A stretch of DNA of 24,520 bases from a virus. Under the pieces are notes generated by a model, which saw only the letters and a program-made list of their open reading frames with translations, searched no databases and was not told the DNA's origin. Both the position numbers and the translations under genes were made by a program. Location: positions 1 through 24,520 of the IMG/VR virus record IMGVR_UViG_3300049215_000014; one strand, written 5' to 3'. This document shows positions 4,970-24,423 of the stretch, piece by piece (the stretch's first letter is position 1; each line of letters opens with the position of its first letter).

Positions 4970-6544
4970 TTAGCCGAAAGACCGCTCATAGGTCGCGGCC
5001 GCCTCCTTACTCACCATGCTCGCAGCCCCGCAAGCAAGGTCAGGCGCACCCAGTACGCAATGCGCCAGGAGGCTCAGGTGCTTCCACTGCTCCACGGTCA
5101 GCGGCGTCACCGGGTTGATGTAGTTCTTCACATAGATCGCGTCGGCGTCGATGACCTGCGTTGCCATGTCCACCTTCCAGTTCGGCAACTGCCAGACCGG
5201 CAGGTGCTTCTGGCGGATCAGCCGATGCAGGATGAAGCCCCGCCCCCGCAGGTACTTGTCGATCTCCGCAAAGCTCGCCTGCCCCTCGTAGAAGGGAATG
5301 AACGGCACCTCCACCTGCACCACCACGGCAGAACTCAGCGTCCGCATCTGACCGTTCAGAACGTCCATCTCGGCGCCCTGCACGTCGATCTTGAGGAAGT
5401 CGACCGGCAGAGGCCATGCATACCCGTCCGGGTCTCCCTTGGCCTCCGGGATCAGTTCGTCGGCGAGAACCTGATCGAGCATCACCGAGATGTGCTCTCC
5501 CGCCGAGACCGTCTTGCAGTGCTCGGTCATGCGGAAGAAGCCGGCAATGCCTTGGTCGATCTCCTTGATACTGGTCATGCCCGGCGACTGGCAGACCGTC
5601 AGGGTTTCATGCCCGCCGCGCCCGATCAGGTGCGGCAGGTAGCGCTGGTCCTCGCGGTTGAACTGCTTCAGGTGCTCGTACTCGGCCGGGTTGGGCTCAA
5701 AGCCCGTCACCGTGCAAAGCCCCTGCAGGAGCATGTCGGCATAGAGCGGCGTGCCGTCGAAGGCTGCCGCGCCGATGTCGATGACCGATGTCTTCCGCTC
5801 CGGCTTCAAGAGGTCGCGCAAGTGCAGACCGGACATGCCGGGCCGCTTGCGCAGGAAGGATGCGTTCCACTCCTTCTTGCCGACGTGACCGATGGGCTGG
5901 ACGGCGTTCGCCCAGATGGTGCCGCCGGAACGGTTGTAGCGTTCGCAGAACGAATAGTCGTCCGACAGCACGCCAACATCCACTTCGACCGTGGGATCAA
6001 AGGCCGAAAAGATGCGCGCGATCCCATTCTTGTCGAGGAACTTCCAGTCGACATACTTGTCGTCGCGGCGGTCGTGAACCACGATCTGACCGGCTTCCAG
6101 CATTTGCGTGATAGCTTCGCGCTGGATCAGAAGCAGGCCACCGCCAACCCCGGCAACCTCCATGAAGCCGCTCTCAGTGACGCGGGCGCCCTTCTTCGTC
6201 CGCACTACCCACTCAATCTCGTCCGAACCTCGCGAGGGATAGATCGCACCCACAATGGGTTTGTCGAACGCGATCATGTCGAGGACGACGCGGGCATCGC
6301 AAGCCATATCCGCGTCGATCAGCAAAAAGTCCGTGCAGTCCGGGAAATTGTCGTACCAGTACGTCAGAAACCCGTTCCGCACCCGCACGATGTCGGCATG
6401 CGAGGACGACATGTACCCAAAGAACATGTCCTTCTCGACCAAGGCTCGGATGATACCCGCAACCGTGGCCGACGTTTCCTCCTCGATCTTCCCGCCATAG
6501 CAAGGCAGGAAAAGCAGGACCTTGCGCTTCTTTCCTCCCGACAT
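4970..6544 (-). CDS. Glycosyltransferase-FkbM methyltransferase fusion protein
   Basis: A 524-residue two-domain enzyme. Residues 7-235 look like a GT-A glycosyltransferase: VLLFLPCYGGKI at the start, the DxD-type metal/nucleotide-sugar motif LLIDADM (74-80), AFDKPIVGAIYPSRG (92-106), and DDYSFCERYNRSGGTIW (195-211), which is common in phage and viral glycosyltransferases. Residues 252-445 match the FkbM SAM-dependent methyltransferase family: the motif I-like VIDIGAAAFDGT (254-265), acidic loop GFEPNP (281-286), VDFLKIDVQGAEMDVLNG (381-398) and VVVQVEVPF (407-415). A C-terminal segment ends at 524. It lies in the head module, three bases after the preceding structural gene. I infer addition of a methylated sugar to a virion protein or host-surface glycan; the acceptor is unknown. 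Confidence 0.85.
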   Translation of the reverse strand: MSGGKKRKVLLFLPCYGGKIEEETSATVAGIIRALVEKDMFFGYMSSSHADIVRVRNGFLTYWYDNFPDCTDFLLIDADMACDARVVLDMIAFDKPIVGAIYPSRGSDEIEWVVRTKKGARVTESGFMEVAGVGGGLLLIQREAITQMLEAGQIVVHDRRDDKYVDWKFLDKNGIARIFSAFDPTVEVDVGVLSDDYSFCERYNRSGGTIWANAVQPIGHVGKKEWNASFLRKRPGMSGLHLRDLLKPERKTSVIDIGAAAFDGTPLYADMLLQGLCTVTGFEPNPAEYEHLKQFNREDQRYLPHLIGRGGHETLTVCQSPGMTSIKEIDQGIAGFFRMTEHCKTVSAGEHISVMLDQVLADELIPEAKGDPDGYAWPLPVDFLKIDVQGAEMDVLNGQMRTLSSAVVVQVEVPFIPFYEGQASFAEIDKYLRGRGFILHRLIRQKHLPVWQLPNWKVDMATQVIDADAIYVKNYINPVTPLTVEQWKHLSLLAHCVLGAPDLACGAASMVSKEAAATYERSFG

Positions 6545-12261: not shown

Positions 12262-12267
12262 TGCTCG

Positions 12268-12519
12268 TCATCGTTTCCCCTCCCCAAAGACAGCATCGGA
12301 CTCCCGGATCAGACGCTCGGCGCGTTTGGTCCACAGCGTCCACTTCGGCTCCCGGCACAGAATGTCTGGCACAGGCTCACCCTCCGCCGGACAATAAGGC
12401 GCCTCGGACTCGTGCGGGTTCCATGCGTCATATACTCCACAACCCGTCAATTCGTCGGGGTTCAAGCAGAACCCGCGTGCCACTTGCTCGATTTCGGCTG
12501 CGTTCTTGTGCGCGGTCAT
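12268..12519 (-). CDS. Small acidic phage protein, unknown function
   Basis: An 83-residue protein starting MTAHKNAAEIEQVARGFCLN; the ATG overlaps the upstream stop as ATGA. It contains four cysteines (GFCLNPDELTGCGVYDAW, PYCPAEGEPVPDILCREPKW) that could bind a metal, and a basic C-terminal helix (KRAERLIRESDAVF). Similar short Cys-containing proteins are common beside phage portal genes. No function can be assigned. Confidence 0.7.
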   Translation of the reverse strand: MTAHKNAAEIEQVARGFCLNPDELTGCGVYDAWNPHESEAPYCPAEGEPVPDILCREPKWTLWTKRAERLIRESDAVFGEGKR

Positions 12520-12698
12520 TTCGCATCAGCCTCCACTGGTGCAACGTATCGCCCGTCCTGCATCAGCAGGTCGGCTATCGCGTCGGACTCGCTCTCCCCA
12601 CGCCCGACATGGTCGCCCGTCTCATACGGCTCGTAGCACGCGATCCAGCGCGGCACGGACGGGTCAAGCTTGACGACGATCTCGCGGGTCTCAGTCAT
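12516..12698 (-). CDS. Small phage protein with putative type II toxin/HicB-like profile, unknown
   Basis: A 60-residue protein. ATG at 12698 is chosen because GGAGGGG lies 2-4 nt upstream and the codon overlaps the stop of the preceding 37-aa gene (ATGA). The sequence MTETREIVVKLDPSVPRWIA followed by GRGESESDAIADLLMQDGRY has the short beta-strand, conserved turn and 'S...Ai..L' helix pattern seen in small single-domain phage proteins related to the HicB fold. This resemblance is weak and only a suggestion. No partner toxin is visible. Confidence 0.65.
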   Translation of the reverse strand: MTETREIVVKLDPSVPRWIACYEPYETGDHVGRGESESDAIADLLMQDGRYVAPVEADAK

Positions 12699-12808
12699 TT
12701 CCCCTCCACCGAATACTGCCGCATCAGCCAGCGGACGACAGACTGCCCGTACAGCAGCGGCCACTTCGGGTCGCGCGGATCAGGCCACCTGATAGGCTCG
12801 CCGCTCAC
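12695..12808 (-). CDS. 37-aa protein, GTG start, in overlapped cluster
   Basis: A very short gene that begins with GTG at 12808 (GTGA overlap with the upstream stop) and ends with TGA overlapping the next ATG (ATGA). The translation begins MSGEPIRWPDPRDPKWPLLY and ends VEGK. GGAGG occurs 7 nt before the start. It is Pro/Trp-rich. The two coupled junctions and good Shine-Dalgarno make it likely to be translated; the function is unknown. Confidence 0.65.
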   Translation of the reverse strand: MSGEPIRWPDPRDPKWPLLYGQSVVRWLMRQYSVEGK

Positions 12809-20067: not shown

Positions 20068-20712
20068 TTATGCCGGATTTCCACGGGCATCATCCGTCGC
20101 CTTGAGATACAGGTATCGGGTCGACGTGTAGTCGCGGTTCATGAGCTTGCCCATTACCTCGAAGGACAGGCCAAGCTGCTCCCGCAAGCGGACAATGGCA
20201 TACCGCCGCGCAAGCACAAGAAATTGCATCTGGCAGGAGCCCAGAAGCTCCTTCCGCGAAACGCCATACATGGCGCAGGCAAGGACGATGATCTTCTCGG
20301 CGGGAGACAGGACGGTGCCCTTTGGCACCCCCACTTTCGCCGGCTTTGGCAAGTAAACAGCGGGATCGTCAGACAGGAACTTGGCGACCGTGGACGGGTC
20401 TTTGCGGATGACGTATGCGATCTGCGCTACCGTCATGCCGCGATCGGCGCGAAGCCTGCGGGCGATGACCTTGCGGGCGGAGACCAGCTTGGCCGTCCGC
20501 TTTTCGCGGCGAATCTCCAGATCAGCGATGCCCAGCTTGGCGCAGTACGGCGCAAGGATTTTGCGCCAGTCGAAAATGGGCACGGATGGCGCAGTGAAGG
20601 GCTTTGCCCACGTCTCGCGGTCGGCCTTCACAATGGGCCGCAAAGTCGTTGCAGGAAAGAACTTCCCCCGCAACTCGGCAGCCCGCGCCTGGATCGCCGC
20701 CTCGATGCTCAT
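20068..20712 (-). CDS. Tandem DnaA domain IV-like DNA-binding protein (no AAA+ domain)
   Basis: A 214-residue protein starting MSIEAAIQARAAELRGKFFP; ATG 20712 overlaps the gcrA stop as ATGA. Two halves each look like DnaA domain IV. The first (about 51-113) reads RKILAPYCAKLGIADLEI ... VSARKVIARRLRADRGMTVA ... IRKDPSTVAKFL. The second (about 137-204) reads EKIIVLACAMYGVSRKELLG ... LVLARRYAIVRLREQLGLS ... NRDYTSTRYLYL. Each keeps the domain IV logic: a first helix, an L-rich loop, R..A.., a central S/T-hydrophobic turn, and the base-contacting RDHT-type signature, here KDPS (104-107) and RDYT (193-196). Chromosomal DnaA carries one such domain after an AAA+ ATPase; here the ATPase is absent. 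Binding of DnaA-box-like sites is likely. Whether it initiates replication or occludes host DnaA is not known. Confidence 0.75.
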   Translation of the reverse strand: MSIEAAIQARAAELRGKFFPATTLRPIVKADRETWAKPFTAPSVPIFDWRKILAPYCAKLGIADLEIRREKRTAKLVSARKVIARRLRADRGMTVAQIAYVIRKDPSTVAKFLSDDPAVYLPKPAKVGVPKGTVLSPAEKIIVLACAMYGVSRKELLGSCQMQFLVLARRYAIVRLREQLGLSFEVMGKLMNRDYTSTRYLYLKATDDARGNPA

Positions 20713-21191
20713 GCGGCCACCCGCCACACCATCCGATGATGCCACGCGCAGAAGCTCGACTTGGGCGCCCACTTGTCGGCCCCGCAGAACATCTGCCCTG
20801 CACCCGTCGCCACGCCAACCGGATACCGACAATGCCGATGGCTCAGGTCCATCAGGCTGACGGCAGTCTCGGCGGTCGGCTCGACAAGGAACAAAAGGAT
20901 CGGCTCGGGCTTTACCTTCGGCGGGCGCATGATCGCGTTCATCGGCTTCCTCCGGTCCTTGCGGGGATTCGCAGATGCGTTCGTGCGGCGCTTCACGCCC
21001 ACAGTCGGAATGGTGGTGCGTGTCCGCTTGCTGATGCCGAGTTCCTTCATGCGGTCGCGATGCATGCGGCCGATGACGGCATTGCGGGTGGTGTCGCCGA
21101 GGTCGCGGGCGATCATCCCGGCAGACCATCCTTGGTTCCACAGGTCACGGGCGCGGGTAAGACGCTCGGGCGTCCATGGCGCGTAGATCAT
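20709..21191 (-). CDS. gcrA: GcrA family cell-cycle transcription regulator
   Basis: A 160-residue protein. ATG 21191 overlaps the MT-A70 stop as ATGA. The N-terminal domain is a clear GcrA match: WTPERLTRARDLWNQGWSAG (6-25) and IARDLGDTTRNAVIGRMHRD (27-46), the helix set that reads methylated GANTC in Caulobacter. The linker (51-110) is basic and disordered. The C-terminal segment HCRYPVG (120-126) ... GQMFCGADKW (133-142) ... FCAWHHRMVW (148-157) matches the zinc-free Cys/Trp/His sigma70-interaction domain of GcrA (LC.WP.G....FCG......YC..H). So both the DNA-binding and RNA-polymerase-contact parts are retained. It would steer host RNA polymerase to adenine-methylated promoters, including the phage's own. 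Confidence 0.9.
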   Translation of the reverse strand: MIYAPWTPERLTRARDLWNQGWSAGMIARDLGDTTRNAVIGRMHRDRMKELGISKRTRTTIPTVGVKRRTNASANPRKDRRKPMNAIMRPPKVKPEPILLFLVEPTAETAVSLMDLSHRHCRYPVGVATGAGQMFCGADKWAPKSSFCAWHHRMVWRVAA

Positions 21192-21775
21192 GCCGCCACC
21201 TCTCCAAACTTGCCCACCTCGTTGCCCCACGCATCCCAGCCCTTGCGGCGCTCCCGCGCAAACAGTTCGACGTAGGGACCACCCACCAGGCGCTCGATGC
21301 GGTCGTGAATGCCGTCAGGCTTGCGAGAATGCTCCCGGCGCGGCGCAATGATCCCCTGCCGCACATCCGCGTGCAGGCGCTTCGGCTTGCCACGGGTTGC
21401 CAGAAGGCTCGGCTCGGTGTTGGCGCGCGTCCAGTAGCCCATGCCGGCAAAGGGCGTCGCGTCGTCGGCGAAAAGCCGGTACGGGTCCGCTTTCATCCAC
21501 GAGAAGGCACAGGTCTTGTAGGTAAAGCCCCAATGGTCGAGGAGTTCAAACGCATCGCGCAACGTAGGCCAGCACGACCACATGAACAGCACGCAGTCAT
21601 CGGCGGCGAGATCCCCGACCGGCAGCGCGCCTATGTCGTCCACCGCCATCGTCGGATAGTGGTTGTCGGCAGACCGCGCCGTGCCCTTTCCGCTCCAAAC
21701 CTCAAATCGCCACGGAGGGTCGGCTAGGATCGCCCCGTAATGCCCGCGCCGCAGGTCGCCGAAGGGCCAACTCAC
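21188..21775 (-). CDS. MT-A70 family adenine-N6 DNA methyltransferase
   Basis: A 195-residue protein starting with GTG at 21775 (GTGA overlap with the preceding stop). The SAM-dependent amino-methyltransferase motif DPPW lies at residues 19-22 (AILADPPWRFEVW), followed by HYPTMAVDDIGALPVGDLAA (39-58), DDCVLFMWSCWPTLRDAFEL (59-78), and the conserved GYWTRANTEPSLLATRGKP ... RREHSRKPDGIHDRIERLVG, ending ELFARERRKGWDAWGNE. This is the phage MT-A70 family, distinct from CcrM. The target sequence is unknown. It is the immediate neighbour of gcrA, whose cellular counterpart senses m6A. Confidence 0.92.
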   Translation of the reverse strand: MSWPFGDLRRGHYGAILADPPWRFEVWSGKGTARSADNHYPTMAVDDIGALPVGDLAADDCVLFMWSCWPTLRDAFELLDHWGFTYKTCAFSWMKADPYRLFADDATPFAGMGYWTRANTEPSLLATRGKPKRLHADVRQGIIAPRREHSRKPDGIHDRIERLVGGPYVELFARERRKGWDAWGNEVGKFGEVAA

Positions 21776-22095
21776 TTGCGTCCCTCCGCCACCATCAGCA
21801 CCCGCAGGAAATCCGACAGGCGCATGACCATCAGGGGCTCCTGCCGGTCAGCCTTGACCACCAGGCCCTTGTGCTCGCCGAGCCAGCCATAGAGCTGCGC
21901 AAACCCGGCAGCCCGGCTCTTGCATTCGAACACCCAATCCTCGCCCAGCACCGGACAGGACACGTCGCCCACATACGAGCCTCCGGCGGCGCCAGAGAGA
22001 GGCACACGCTCGGCTGCGAGGCCGGCGTCCTGCAGGATGTGGACGATGGACCGCTCCATGCGGGCGCCCTTGTCGCGGGAGGCGCGACCGGTCAT
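21772..22095 (-). CDS. Holliday-junction resolvase-like PD-(D/E)XK nuclease
   Basis: A 107-residue protein starting with ATG 22095 (ATGA overlap with the methyltransferase stop). It shows the archaeal Hjc/phage resolvase core: SRDKGARMERSIVHILQDAG (6-25; E14), GSYVGDVSCPV (39-49; D44), WVFECKSRA (54-62; E57-x-K59) and FAQLYGWLGEHKGLVVKADR (65-84). These supply the E-D-ExK catalytic set. It should cut branched DNA produced during replication or recombination. The longer frame to 22254 is rejected because it overlaps the methyltransferase gene out of frame. Confidence 0.85.
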   Translation of the reverse strand: MTGRASRDKGARMERSIVHILQDAGLAAERVPLSGAAGGSYVGDVSCPVLGEDWVFECKSRAAGFAQLYGWLGEHKGLVVKADRQEPLMVMRLSDFLRVLMVAEGRK

Positions 22096-22808
22096 GCAGC
22101 AGCCCTCATCATGCCAGGGTGAAACGTGCGGGCGATGTATCGGCTTAACGGCAGGGGTATCTTCGCGATCATCGCCGAAGCGAACTTGCGCTTCGCCGAC
22201 TTGCTGCCCGAAGATGCCAAGCTGTCGGGTGTGCGCGGGCCGTCGTTGAACCATTGCGTTCCAGCCGGGGCCTTGCGCCCGTCAGGAACCATGCGATTGC
22301 AGGACTGTAACGTGCCGTTTTCCCGCCACCCGCTTCCGTCATGCTTGGCGGCCTTGAAAACGGGTGGCATCAACGCAGGAACATCGCCCCAAAGGTAAAA
22401 GCTACCGAAACACCATCGTGCCCTGCCAACCCATTTCTGCGCGCCGCGCACGTTCTCGACCACCAGCGGGATGTGCCGGCCAGCGGCCTCGCAAGCCTCG
22501 CGCTGAATGCGAAAGCAAGCATCGAACAGCGTATTGTCCGGTGGCGGCAACGCCTTCGCCCGCTTCCACGGCATCGCCCGATAGCTGTATGCTTGGCATG
22601 GTGGAGACGCGACAATCAGCGCCGCATCGCGGAACTGGCTGCCGTGCAACGTCAGCACGTCCTGGACAACAAGTTGCGCCGGGTAGCGATGCTCCCCGTA
22701 GACATGCCGCTCGATGTCGAAGCCGACGACATCATAGCCCTCGGCCAGCAAACCCTCGGTCCAGCCGCCAAGGCCGCAGTATAAATCTATGCCTAGCGGC
22801 CTGCTCAT
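22092..22808 (-). CDS. C5-cytosine DNA methyltransferase
   Basis: A 238-residue protein starting MSRPLGIDLYCGLGGWTEGL; the ATG overlaps the gapR stop as ATGA. SAM motif I is DLYCGLGGWTEGL (8-20), catalytic PC motif SPPCQAYSY (68-76; C71), and motif VI VVENV (116-120). Later parts WFNDGPRTPDSLASSGSKS and KIPLPLSRYIARTF correspond to the target-recognition and C-terminal motif region, though the whole enzyme is shorter than most (about 330-400 residues). It could modify phage DNA against host restriction. Recognition sequence unknown. Confidence 0.88.
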   Translation of the reverse strand: MSRPLGIDLYCGLGGWTEGLLAEGYDVVGFDIERHVYGEHRYPAQLVVQDVLTLHGSQFRDAALIVASPPCQAYSYRAMPWKRAKALPPPDNTLFDACFRIQREACEAAGRHIPLVVENVRGAQKWVGRARWCFGSFYLWGDVPALMPPVFKAAKHDGSGWRENGTLQSCNRMVPDGRKAPAGTQWFNDGPRTPDSLASSGSKSAKRKFASAMIAKIPLPLSRYIARTFHPGMMRAAA

Positions 22809-23098
22809 GCAGCCCGCACCGACACGCTGGCGATGGCGGCCTTGCCCAACGGAGTATCCGCCAGCATCCCGAGGGCATGCCGGTATGTGTCGAGGATGGC
22901 CTCCTGCTCCGCCAGGTCGCGGGCATCCATGCGGCGCTCGCGGATGATCCGGCGGAGGACTTTCACGTCGTAGCCATTTGAGCGTGCTTCGGCGTAGACC
23001 TCCTTGATGTCATCGGCGGTTTCCCGCTTCTGCTCTTCGAGGGTTTCGATCCGGGAGATGATCGACTTGAGCTGTGCGGCTGCGATGGTGTCGGACAT
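22805..23098 (-). CDS. gapR: GapR family nucleoid protein (DUF2312)
   Basis: A 97-residue protein. ATG 23098 has TAGGAG 7-8 nt upstream and is the correct start; a longer frame upstream is antisense. The sequence AAAQLKSIISRIETLEEQKR followed by DIKEVYAEARSNGYDVKVLR is a direct match to Caulobacter GapR/DUF2312 ('QLKSI..R.E.LE..K......IKEVYAEA.gnGfDvKvLk..vr.R....'). It then continues with RRMDARDLAEQEAILDTYRH. GapR forms a clamp on overtwisted, AT-rich DNA ahead of moving polymerases and helps topoisomerases. A phage copy would presumably help replication or transcription of phage DNA. Confidence 0.93.
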   Translation of the reverse strand: MSDTIAAAQLKSIISRIETLEEQKRETADDIKEVYAEARSNGYDVKVLRRIIRERRMDARDLAEQEAILDTYRHALGMLADTPLGKAAIASVSVRAA

Positions 23099-23510: not shown

Positions 23511-23942
23511 TCAATCCAAGGGGCGATCAGGACCGCGAAGCGCCGCGCGATGCGCAGCCACTTGAGGGCCATGGAAGTCCTCGTCCTGAAGCAGCAGGGC
23601 CTCCAGCCTCGCGATGCGAGCATCGATTTGCGCCAAGGCATCCCGTCCCTCCGCCAGTAACCGCGTGTCAGCCGCCGCCTTGCGAATGGCGTCCATCTCT
23701 TCGGCGCGAATGATCCGTGCCTCCTGACGCCAGATGTCCTCCGCACGGCCATGCGTCATCGGGTGCGCCATGAACCGGGATACCCTCCGGGCAGCGCGGC
23801 TGATGGCGGCCTTGACGCTGTCCCCGACAGGTCGAGGCTCGGCGACGCGGCGCAGCAGGCTCGAAGCCTCAGCAGCGATGCTCATGACTGCCTCTTTGCG
23901 CGCGGTGCGCTTGGTTGAGCGCAAGGTGTGAAATTCCGACAT
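23511..23942 (-). CDS. Basic/coiled-coil protein of the early operon, unknown
   Basis: A 143-residue protein starting at ATG 23942 with GGAG 9 nt upstream. An alternative ATG at 23885, with AGAGG 6 nt upstream, would give a 124-residue form (MSIAAEASSLLRRV...). The N-terminal half is Arg-rich (VKAAISRAARRVSRFMAHPM, GRAEDIWRQEARIIRAEEMD) and the second half is a predicted helix or coiled coil (DALAQIDARIARLEALLLQD). It is the first gene of the leftward operon and starts next to a divergent rightward gene. No homologue recognised; a small DNA-binding accessory protein is a guess. Confidence 0.6.
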   Translation of the reverse strand: MSEFHTLRSTKRTARKEAVMSIAAEASSLLRRVAEPRPVGDSVKAAISRAARRVSRFMAHPMTHGRAEDIWRQEARIIRAEEMDAIRKAAADTRLLAEGRDALAQIDARIARLEALLLQDEDFHGPQVAAHRAALRGPDRPLD

Positions 23943-23963
23943 CTAGGAAGGCTCCTCGGCCAT

Positions 23964-23980
23964 GTTCGTTGTCGACGAAC
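23964..23980. promoter_or_regulatory. 17-bp dyad in the divergent start region (candidate operator)
   Basis: GTTCGT-TGTCG-ACGAAC is a perfect 6-bp inverted repeat with a 5-bp spacer. It lies between the leftward start at 23942 and the rightward ATG at 23995. A regulator binding here could control both operons. If the rightward gene actually starts at 23962, the site would lie inside its first codons. I find no strong -10/-35 pair. Confidence 0.4.
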
Positions 23981-23994
23981 ACGCGGAGCAACCG

Positions 23995-24423
23995 ATGTCG
24001 GATGACTGGGAGTCGATCGGCGAGCTGGTGGCCCGCATAGCAGGTGGATTGACGGGGGTTGCCGCCCCCGACACCACCGACCTTCAGGAAGGAGAAGGCC
24101 GGGAGCCGAAGCCCCCGGCAGTTGGCATCGACAGACCGGGTAGCGTGCTGAGGGAGGAGTACAGCAGCATACCCACCGGCAAGCGGCCGGCTTCGCCAGC
24201 GGGCCATGAGCCCGAAGAGGGTGCGGGAGCGCTTGCAACCGGGATGGAGGGACATGCCGAGAGCACTCCCGCGTACCGGCTGTTCGTACTCAGCCGGATA
24301 GGCACCGCCGGGATGCGGATGCGGCGGGAGCACCCCGGCGGCCTGCGCGTGGTAGGAGGTAGCGCCACGCGGTTCGAGATCAGAGAGACGCGGTCTGCCG
24401 CACGGGCACACCAGCGTCGTTGA
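23995..24423 (+). CDS. Divergent small rightward protein, unknown (possible frameshift)
   Basis: An acidic protein of 142 residues from ATG 23995 (GGAG 7 nt upstream), or 153 from ATG 23962. It begins MSDDWESIGELVARIAGGLT, a good phage-like N-terminus. Beyond about residue 20 the sequence (GHEPEEGAGALATGMEGHAE, RREHPGGLRVVGGSATRFEI) is low in structure. A second possible start (GGAGG then ATG 24255, MPRALPRTGCSYSAG, then stop) lies in another frame, so the region may contain a frameshift or two genes. Coding on this strand is moderately supported. Confidence 0.45.
   Translation: MSDDWESIGELVARIAGGLTGVAAPDTTDLQEGEGREPKPPAVGIDRPGSVLREEYSSIPTGKRPASPAGHEPEEGAGALATGMEGHAESTPAYRLFVLSRIGTAGMRMRREHPGGLRVVGGSATRFEIRETRSAARAHQRR

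Follow-up and report, generated by a model that had tools for sequence, protein, structure and literature searches.

We examined a viral contig of 24,520 bases (IMG/VR record IMGVR_UViG_3300049215_000014, the whole of which we call the window), a fragment of a phage genome with 63.7% G+C, on which almost every gene lies on the minus strand and which no named phage closely matches. We found that six genes on this strand, between positions 23098 and 20068, encode GapR, a C5-cytosine methyltransferase, a Holliday-junction resolvase-like nuclease, an MT-A70 adenine methyltransferase, GcrA and a protein built from DnaA domain IV. All five junctions between them are 4-nucleotide stop/start overlaps (ATGA, ATGA, GTGA, ATGA and ATGA) at exact gene boundaries, which supports the operon, and hence the co-transcription, proposed in an earlier reading of the letters alone (the sequence-only reading). 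Moreover, profile searches bore out all six family assignments of that reading, including those of GcrA, GapR and DnaA domain IV. The six genes thus stand, but the operon does not end at 20068, because an open reading frame (ORF) for a replication-initiation-type protein of 178 amino acids (20037-19501, minus strand; phrog_270, 2.7e-15) follows directly downstream.

The GcrA of the window (160 amino acids; 21191-20709, minus strand; PF07750, 4e-27; PDB 7ye1, 8.8e-16) is complete, as had been claimed, in that it covers positions 3-147 of the 155 in the PF07750 profile and contains an N-terminal methyl-DNA-binding domain, a linker and a C-terminal sigma-interacting domain (the functions of these domains in Caulobacter are reviewed in PMC7403470). 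The protein also matches PDB entries 5yiu and 5yix. The methyl-DNA-binding domain is identical to that of Caulobacter GcrA at 22 of 41 residues, with a nearly identical recognition helix (TRNAVIGRMHR in the window, TRNAVIGKVHR in Caulobacter), and three cysteines of the sigma-interacting domain are invariant across nine aligned phage GcrA proteins. In several phages we also noted proteins of 71-90 amino acids that consist of the sigma-interacting domain only and have no DNA-binding domain (L095, L094 and L096, on the contigs of L004, L041 and L056; L080:6939-7196; L122:9115-9345); in L122 this gene lies directly upstream of the DnaA domain-IV gene. Such proteins could be stand-alone modulators of sigma70 or decoys of host GcrA.

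As the sequence-only reading had noted, an adenine methyltransferase gene adjoins gcrA: the MT-A70 gene (195 amino acids, GTG start; 21775-21188, minus strand) overlaps it by 4 nucleotides. Its product matches the full PF05063 profile (1e-23; phrog_359, 1.8e-78), and the catalytic DPPW motif is kept in all sequences of the MT-A70 alignment. The family is unrelated to the CcrM-type methyltransferases that modify GANTC. Judged from its sequence, the substrate of the enzyme could be DNA or RNA. An RNA methyltransferase acting on rRNA or mRNA, with no functional relation to the mark read by GcrA, would have a precedent in an Escherichia coli prophage MT-A70 enzyme, also with DPPW, that together with a partner protein methylates 16S rRNA (PMC10810198), and METTL3 is among the closest solved structures (8e-11). 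However, the Tetrahymena DNA methyltransferase MTA1 is equally close (1e-10), and the gene is associated with genes whose products act on DNA. A structural model (predicted local distance difference test score, pLDDT, 66) confirms only the fold of METTL3/METTL14 and MTA1. We consider an RNA target for this enzyme rather doubtful.

The first three genes of the operon and the last complete the set. GapR (DUF2312/UPF0335; 97 amino acids; 23098-22805, minus strand; PF10073, 7.7e-30) has a PF10073 domain that aligns along solved GapR structures (PDB 6cfy, 6e-26, residues 1-78). It is followed on the same strand by a small C5-cytosine DNA methyltransferase with PCQ and ENV motifs (238 amino acids; 22808-22092; PF00145, 6.5e-6; phrog_363, 1.5e-14) and by a nuclease of the Hjc/PDDEXK type (107 amino acids; 22095-21772; PF24608, 9.4e-8; Hjc, 2.7e-5; phrog_244, 1.1e-18). 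The last of the six genes (214 amino acids; 20712-20068, minus strand; PF08299, 1.5e-12, in two stretches) had been called a DnaA domain IV-type protein; domain IV is present, but as a tandem of two modules. These modules (residues 48-111 and 126-199) score 54 and 58 bits with a profile built for this analysis, and the separate halves of the protein match Pfam with E values of 4e-4 and 4e-7. The internal repeat score is 55, compared to 22.8 +/- 3.8 in shuffled sequences (0 of 500 as high). The second module retains the R-D-x-T of the DnaA signature (R-D-Y-T-S compared to R-D-H-T-T). Only domain-IV and helix-turn-helix profiles match the protein, with no match to the AAA+ ATPase domain III; lacking an AAA+ domain, the protein is not a DnaA. 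An AlphaFold single-sequence model was unusable (pLDDT 38).

Scans of viral contigs with single proteins found no relatives of the window GcrA or of the domain-IV protein, and tblastn found no relatives of the latter in phages; the alignment of GcrA was too divergent to serve for a scan of the collection. We therefore surveyed relatives through MT-A70, through GapR and through the GcrA proteins of relatives, which gave 80, 80 and 84 viral loci, respectively, together with 80 loci from cellular genomes gathered through MT-A70. All gathered loci (labelled L003 and so on) were scanned with profiles built for the purpose.

We found conserved synteny in other alphaproteobacterial phages and prophages, in the form of subsets of the same early module. 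In rhizobial-type prophages (L136-L139, L165-L177, L266-L345), GapR and a methyltransferase (GANTC-type, N6/N4 methylase or MT-A70) are followed by GcrA, all transcribed in the same direction as in the window; unlike the window, the methyltransferase is usually GANTC-type or N6_N4 (PF01555), the genes extend over 5-7 kb, and DnaA domain IV was not found beside GcrA. In L122, a stretch of 4.5 kb holds GapR, a GcrA of the sigma-domain-only kind, a domain-IV protein and a GANTC-type methyltransferase, and in L008 the GcrA and domain-IV genes overlap by 4 nucleotides, as in the window. The closest MT-A70 (78%) is found in the viral contig L003 (IMGVR 3300047409_000603), with gcrA immediately after it and GapR upstream; the domain-IV and C5 genes of the window were not found in the 16.6 kb read there. 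The methyltransferase of the module comes from three unrelated families: MT-A70, the NPP type related to p027 of phage phiLM21, and N6_N4_Mtase (PF01555). The packaging of all these families in one operon, which had been singled out as what stands out, is real, and no other of the loci read is as compact as the window, which is also among the most complete; the singularity of this packaging is weakened, since combined modules recur in other phages.

A chance assembly of unrelated early genes, with no functional coupling, would agree with the shuffling of phage early regions and with the many relatives that carry subsets of the module only. Against this stand the five 4-nucleotide overlaps and the recurrent joining of GapR, GcrA and domain-IV genes to a methyltransferase gene drawn from three unrelated families, and we hold such an assembly to be very unlikely.

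The juxtaposition of gcrA and MT-A70 also recurs. Of 16 dereplicated loci holding both genes, 8 have the two within 200 bp of each other, where 3.0 would be expected from gene numbers (P = 0.003); the abutment persists when the window is left out (P about 0.013), and both gene orders occur. The domain-IV, GapR, C5 and RepX genes, examined as controls, were not significantly enriched next to MT-A70, while pairs of MT-A70 and GANTC-type methyltransferase genes were enriched as neighbours (3 of 4 adjacent, although the pairs are few). On the MT-A70 tree, the window falls in a clade of 13 rows (support 100/99), six members of which have gcrA nearby. Nearness of gcrA changes 11 times on this tree (at least 9 of them forced), compared to a mean of 15.3 in shuffles, with none of 500 shuffles as low; the association has thus been gained or lost repeatedly, and is clustered. 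Finally, GapR phages (dereplicated) carry an amino-methyltransferase more frequently if they also carry GcrA (11/14) than if they do not (8/23; P = 0.017). The association of gcrA and MT-A70 is thus genuine and non-random, but moderate.

These results bear on the proposal of the sequence-only reading that the phage runs a private circuit of writer and reader, in which MT-A70 marks promoter adenines of the phage or the host for the phage GcrA to read, uncoupling transcription from the CcrM cycle of the host. The 4-nucleotide overlap, the abutment with its unenriched controls, the clustering on the tree and the richness of GcrA-bearing GapR phages in amino-methyltransferases are all in its favour. 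However, a phylogeny-corrected test of the GcrA/methyltransferase association had only five usable pairs and no power, and the distribution of MT-A70 does not support its role as the writer for GcrA. MT-A70 occurs in 352 phage records, many of them from phages of non-alphaproteobacterial hosts (Vibrio, Klebsiella, Escherichia and Salmonella). Related orphan genes with metabolic neighbours lie on the chromosomes of Geminicoccaceae, Rhodospirillaceae and other alphaproteobacteria (L187, L209, L212, L220, L230 and others), and no GcrA match was found in 6 of the 10 genomes with chromosomal MT-A70 that were searched, including one titled complete (AP024683). Furthermore, in six loci (L006, L085, L240, L257, L272 and L322) MT-A70 adjoins an NPP-type methyltransferase of the GANTC family, often with a 4-nucleotide overlap, which suggests that MT-A70 probably has another target. 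The 16S rRNA-methylating relative and the distribution of GANTC described below count against it as well. Thus, we view the private circuit as possible but unlikely, and do not favour it. A bolder form, in which MT-A70 writes N6-methyladenine (m6A) in DNA at a motif other than GANTC and GcrA, alone or with the tandem domain-IV protein, has shifted to read it, would put a private epigenetic promoter code in a single operon; we deem it highly improbable.

We also considered whether MT-A70 replaces the GANTC methyltransferase and has taken over its specificity. The presence of both side by side in several loci largely rejects this idea.

The composition of the contig points to the mark of the host. 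GANTC occurs at 25 sites, compared to 113.7 expected (0.22x, z = -10), an approximately 4.5-fold depletion, stronger than that of any other of the 16 odd palindromes of this form. The median GANTC ratio was 0.21-0.22 in viral loci with GcrA (n = 111, many closely related) and 0.43 in viral loci without GcrA and GapR. This depletion fits a phage long resident in hosts that methylate GANTC. CTAG is also depleted in the contig, about 4-fold (8 compared to 33).

A second interpretation is that the phage GcrA reads the GANTC methylation made by the host CcrM, chiefly at host promoters; the two phage methyltransferases would have other tasks, for instance in guarding against restriction, and would neighbour gcrA because all of them are early genes. 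This would agree with the recognition helix, nearly that of Caulobacter GcrA, with the adaptation to a GANTC-methylating host that the depletion indicates, and with the wide occurrence of phage MT-A70 without GcrA. Moreover, prophage genes can be under the control of host GcrA: in Brevundimonas subvibrioides, the expression of a 26-gene prophage operon depends on GcrA (PMC7987155). Against this interpretation stands the abutment of MT-A70 and gcrA, which is more frequent than membership in a common module alone predicts. We regard exploitation of the host mark as a serious possibility, with somewhat less than an even chance of being right.

Overall, we think it likely that the six genes form an early operon for replication and host takeover in a tailed alphaproteobacterial phage, in which GcrA steers the sigma70 polymerase of the host. 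Judging from the known families to which its proteins belong, GapR would bind the overtwisted DNA created by phage replication, the tandem domain-IV protein, as a DNA-binding factor, and the replication-type gene (20037-19501), whose product is possibly a helicase loader, would start phage replication, and the nuclease would resolve replication intermediates. The two methyltransferases would modify phage DNA, although MT-A70 may act on RNA instead. By binding sigma region 2, GcrA would steer the host RNA polymerase to m6A promoters, and may thus help S-phase and phage gene expression to continue or to begin, whatever the level of host GcrA.

Two results weigh against this picture. First, host-type DnaA boxes are no commoner than expected (3 near-matches compared to 10 expected in the fragment), and the role of an origin-binding-type factor, which had been suggested for the domain-IV protein, is plausible but gains nothing from them. 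Second, none of the 25 GANTC sites lies in a likely promoter or intergenic interval of the contig, although chance would place only about two there; all 25 apparently lie in coding sequence (the interval 12262-12804 holds two overlapping ORFs). With no GANTC in likely phage promoters, the main targets of the phage GcrA may be host promoters, phage promoters beyond this fragment, or a different motif.

Parts of this arrangement are already known. Caulobacter phages of the phiCbK type encode a GcrA homologue (gp222), proposed to push the host toward DNA replication (PMC3556154); unlike the window, these phages are large (205-280 kb), and the passages of that report examined describe no neighbouring methyltransferase, GapR or domain-IV gene. 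GcrA is also carried by Agrobacterium phage Atu_ph08 (PMC6630229), and GcrA-like proteins by a brucellaphage (PMC11836647). Sinorhizobial prophages carry methyltransferases of CcrM (GANTC) specificity, all in replication modules, and p027 of phiLM21 was shown to be GANTC-specific (PMC5537653); GcrA and UPF0335 (GapR) are among the genes of phiLM21-like prophages (PMC12429752). Like the window, phiLM21 and related prophages have an m6A methyltransferase in a replication module with a DnaA-like gene, but the phiLM21 enzyme is of the GANTC-specific NPP type and not MT-A70, and phiLM21 itself gave no GcrA match in our scan. Rhizobium phage RHph_TM3_3_3 (MN988468) has an early region in which DUF2312 occurs with a DnaA-like gene and two methyltransferases, one of them MT-A70; GcrA was not found there. 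Thus, phage GcrA and phage CcrM-specific methyltransferases are each known, while the literature searched describes neither the combination of the parts in one operon nor its recurrence, and yielded no report of GcrA with MT-A70, or with GapR, in a phage. The window places GcrA and methyltransferase functions with replication genes in one operon, and the pairing recurs while the methyltransferase family varies; it becomes testable whether phages of alphaproteobacteria supply the writing as well as the reading side of the m6A code of the host, or the reading side only.

Several other genes surround the operon. Downstream, a second, weakly GcrA-like protein (18941-18444, minus strand) matches PF07750 at positions 13-66 with 23.8 bits, below the cut-off of 26.9, and the phage GcrA profile recovers it at 3e-8; its N-terminus weakly resembles the GcrA DNA-binding domain, its C-terminus is unrelated, and it has no sigma-interacting domain. 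Upstream lies an ORF with no assigned function (23885-23511, minus strand; phrog_26665, 6.4e-12), which probably starts at 23885, although the longest ORF would reach back to 23942, and which recurs beside phage gapR in relatives (L046, L051, L085, L133, L137 and others). A divergent ORF (23962-24423, plus strand; 153 amino acids, no Pfam match) is separated from this likely start by 76 bp, a possible early control region. Farther along the contig are terminase, portal, major-head-protein-like and endonuclease VII-like genes, and among the structural genes a 524-amino-acid protein (4970-6544, minus strand) carries a C-terminal FkbM methyltransferase domain (PF05050, 1.9e-17).

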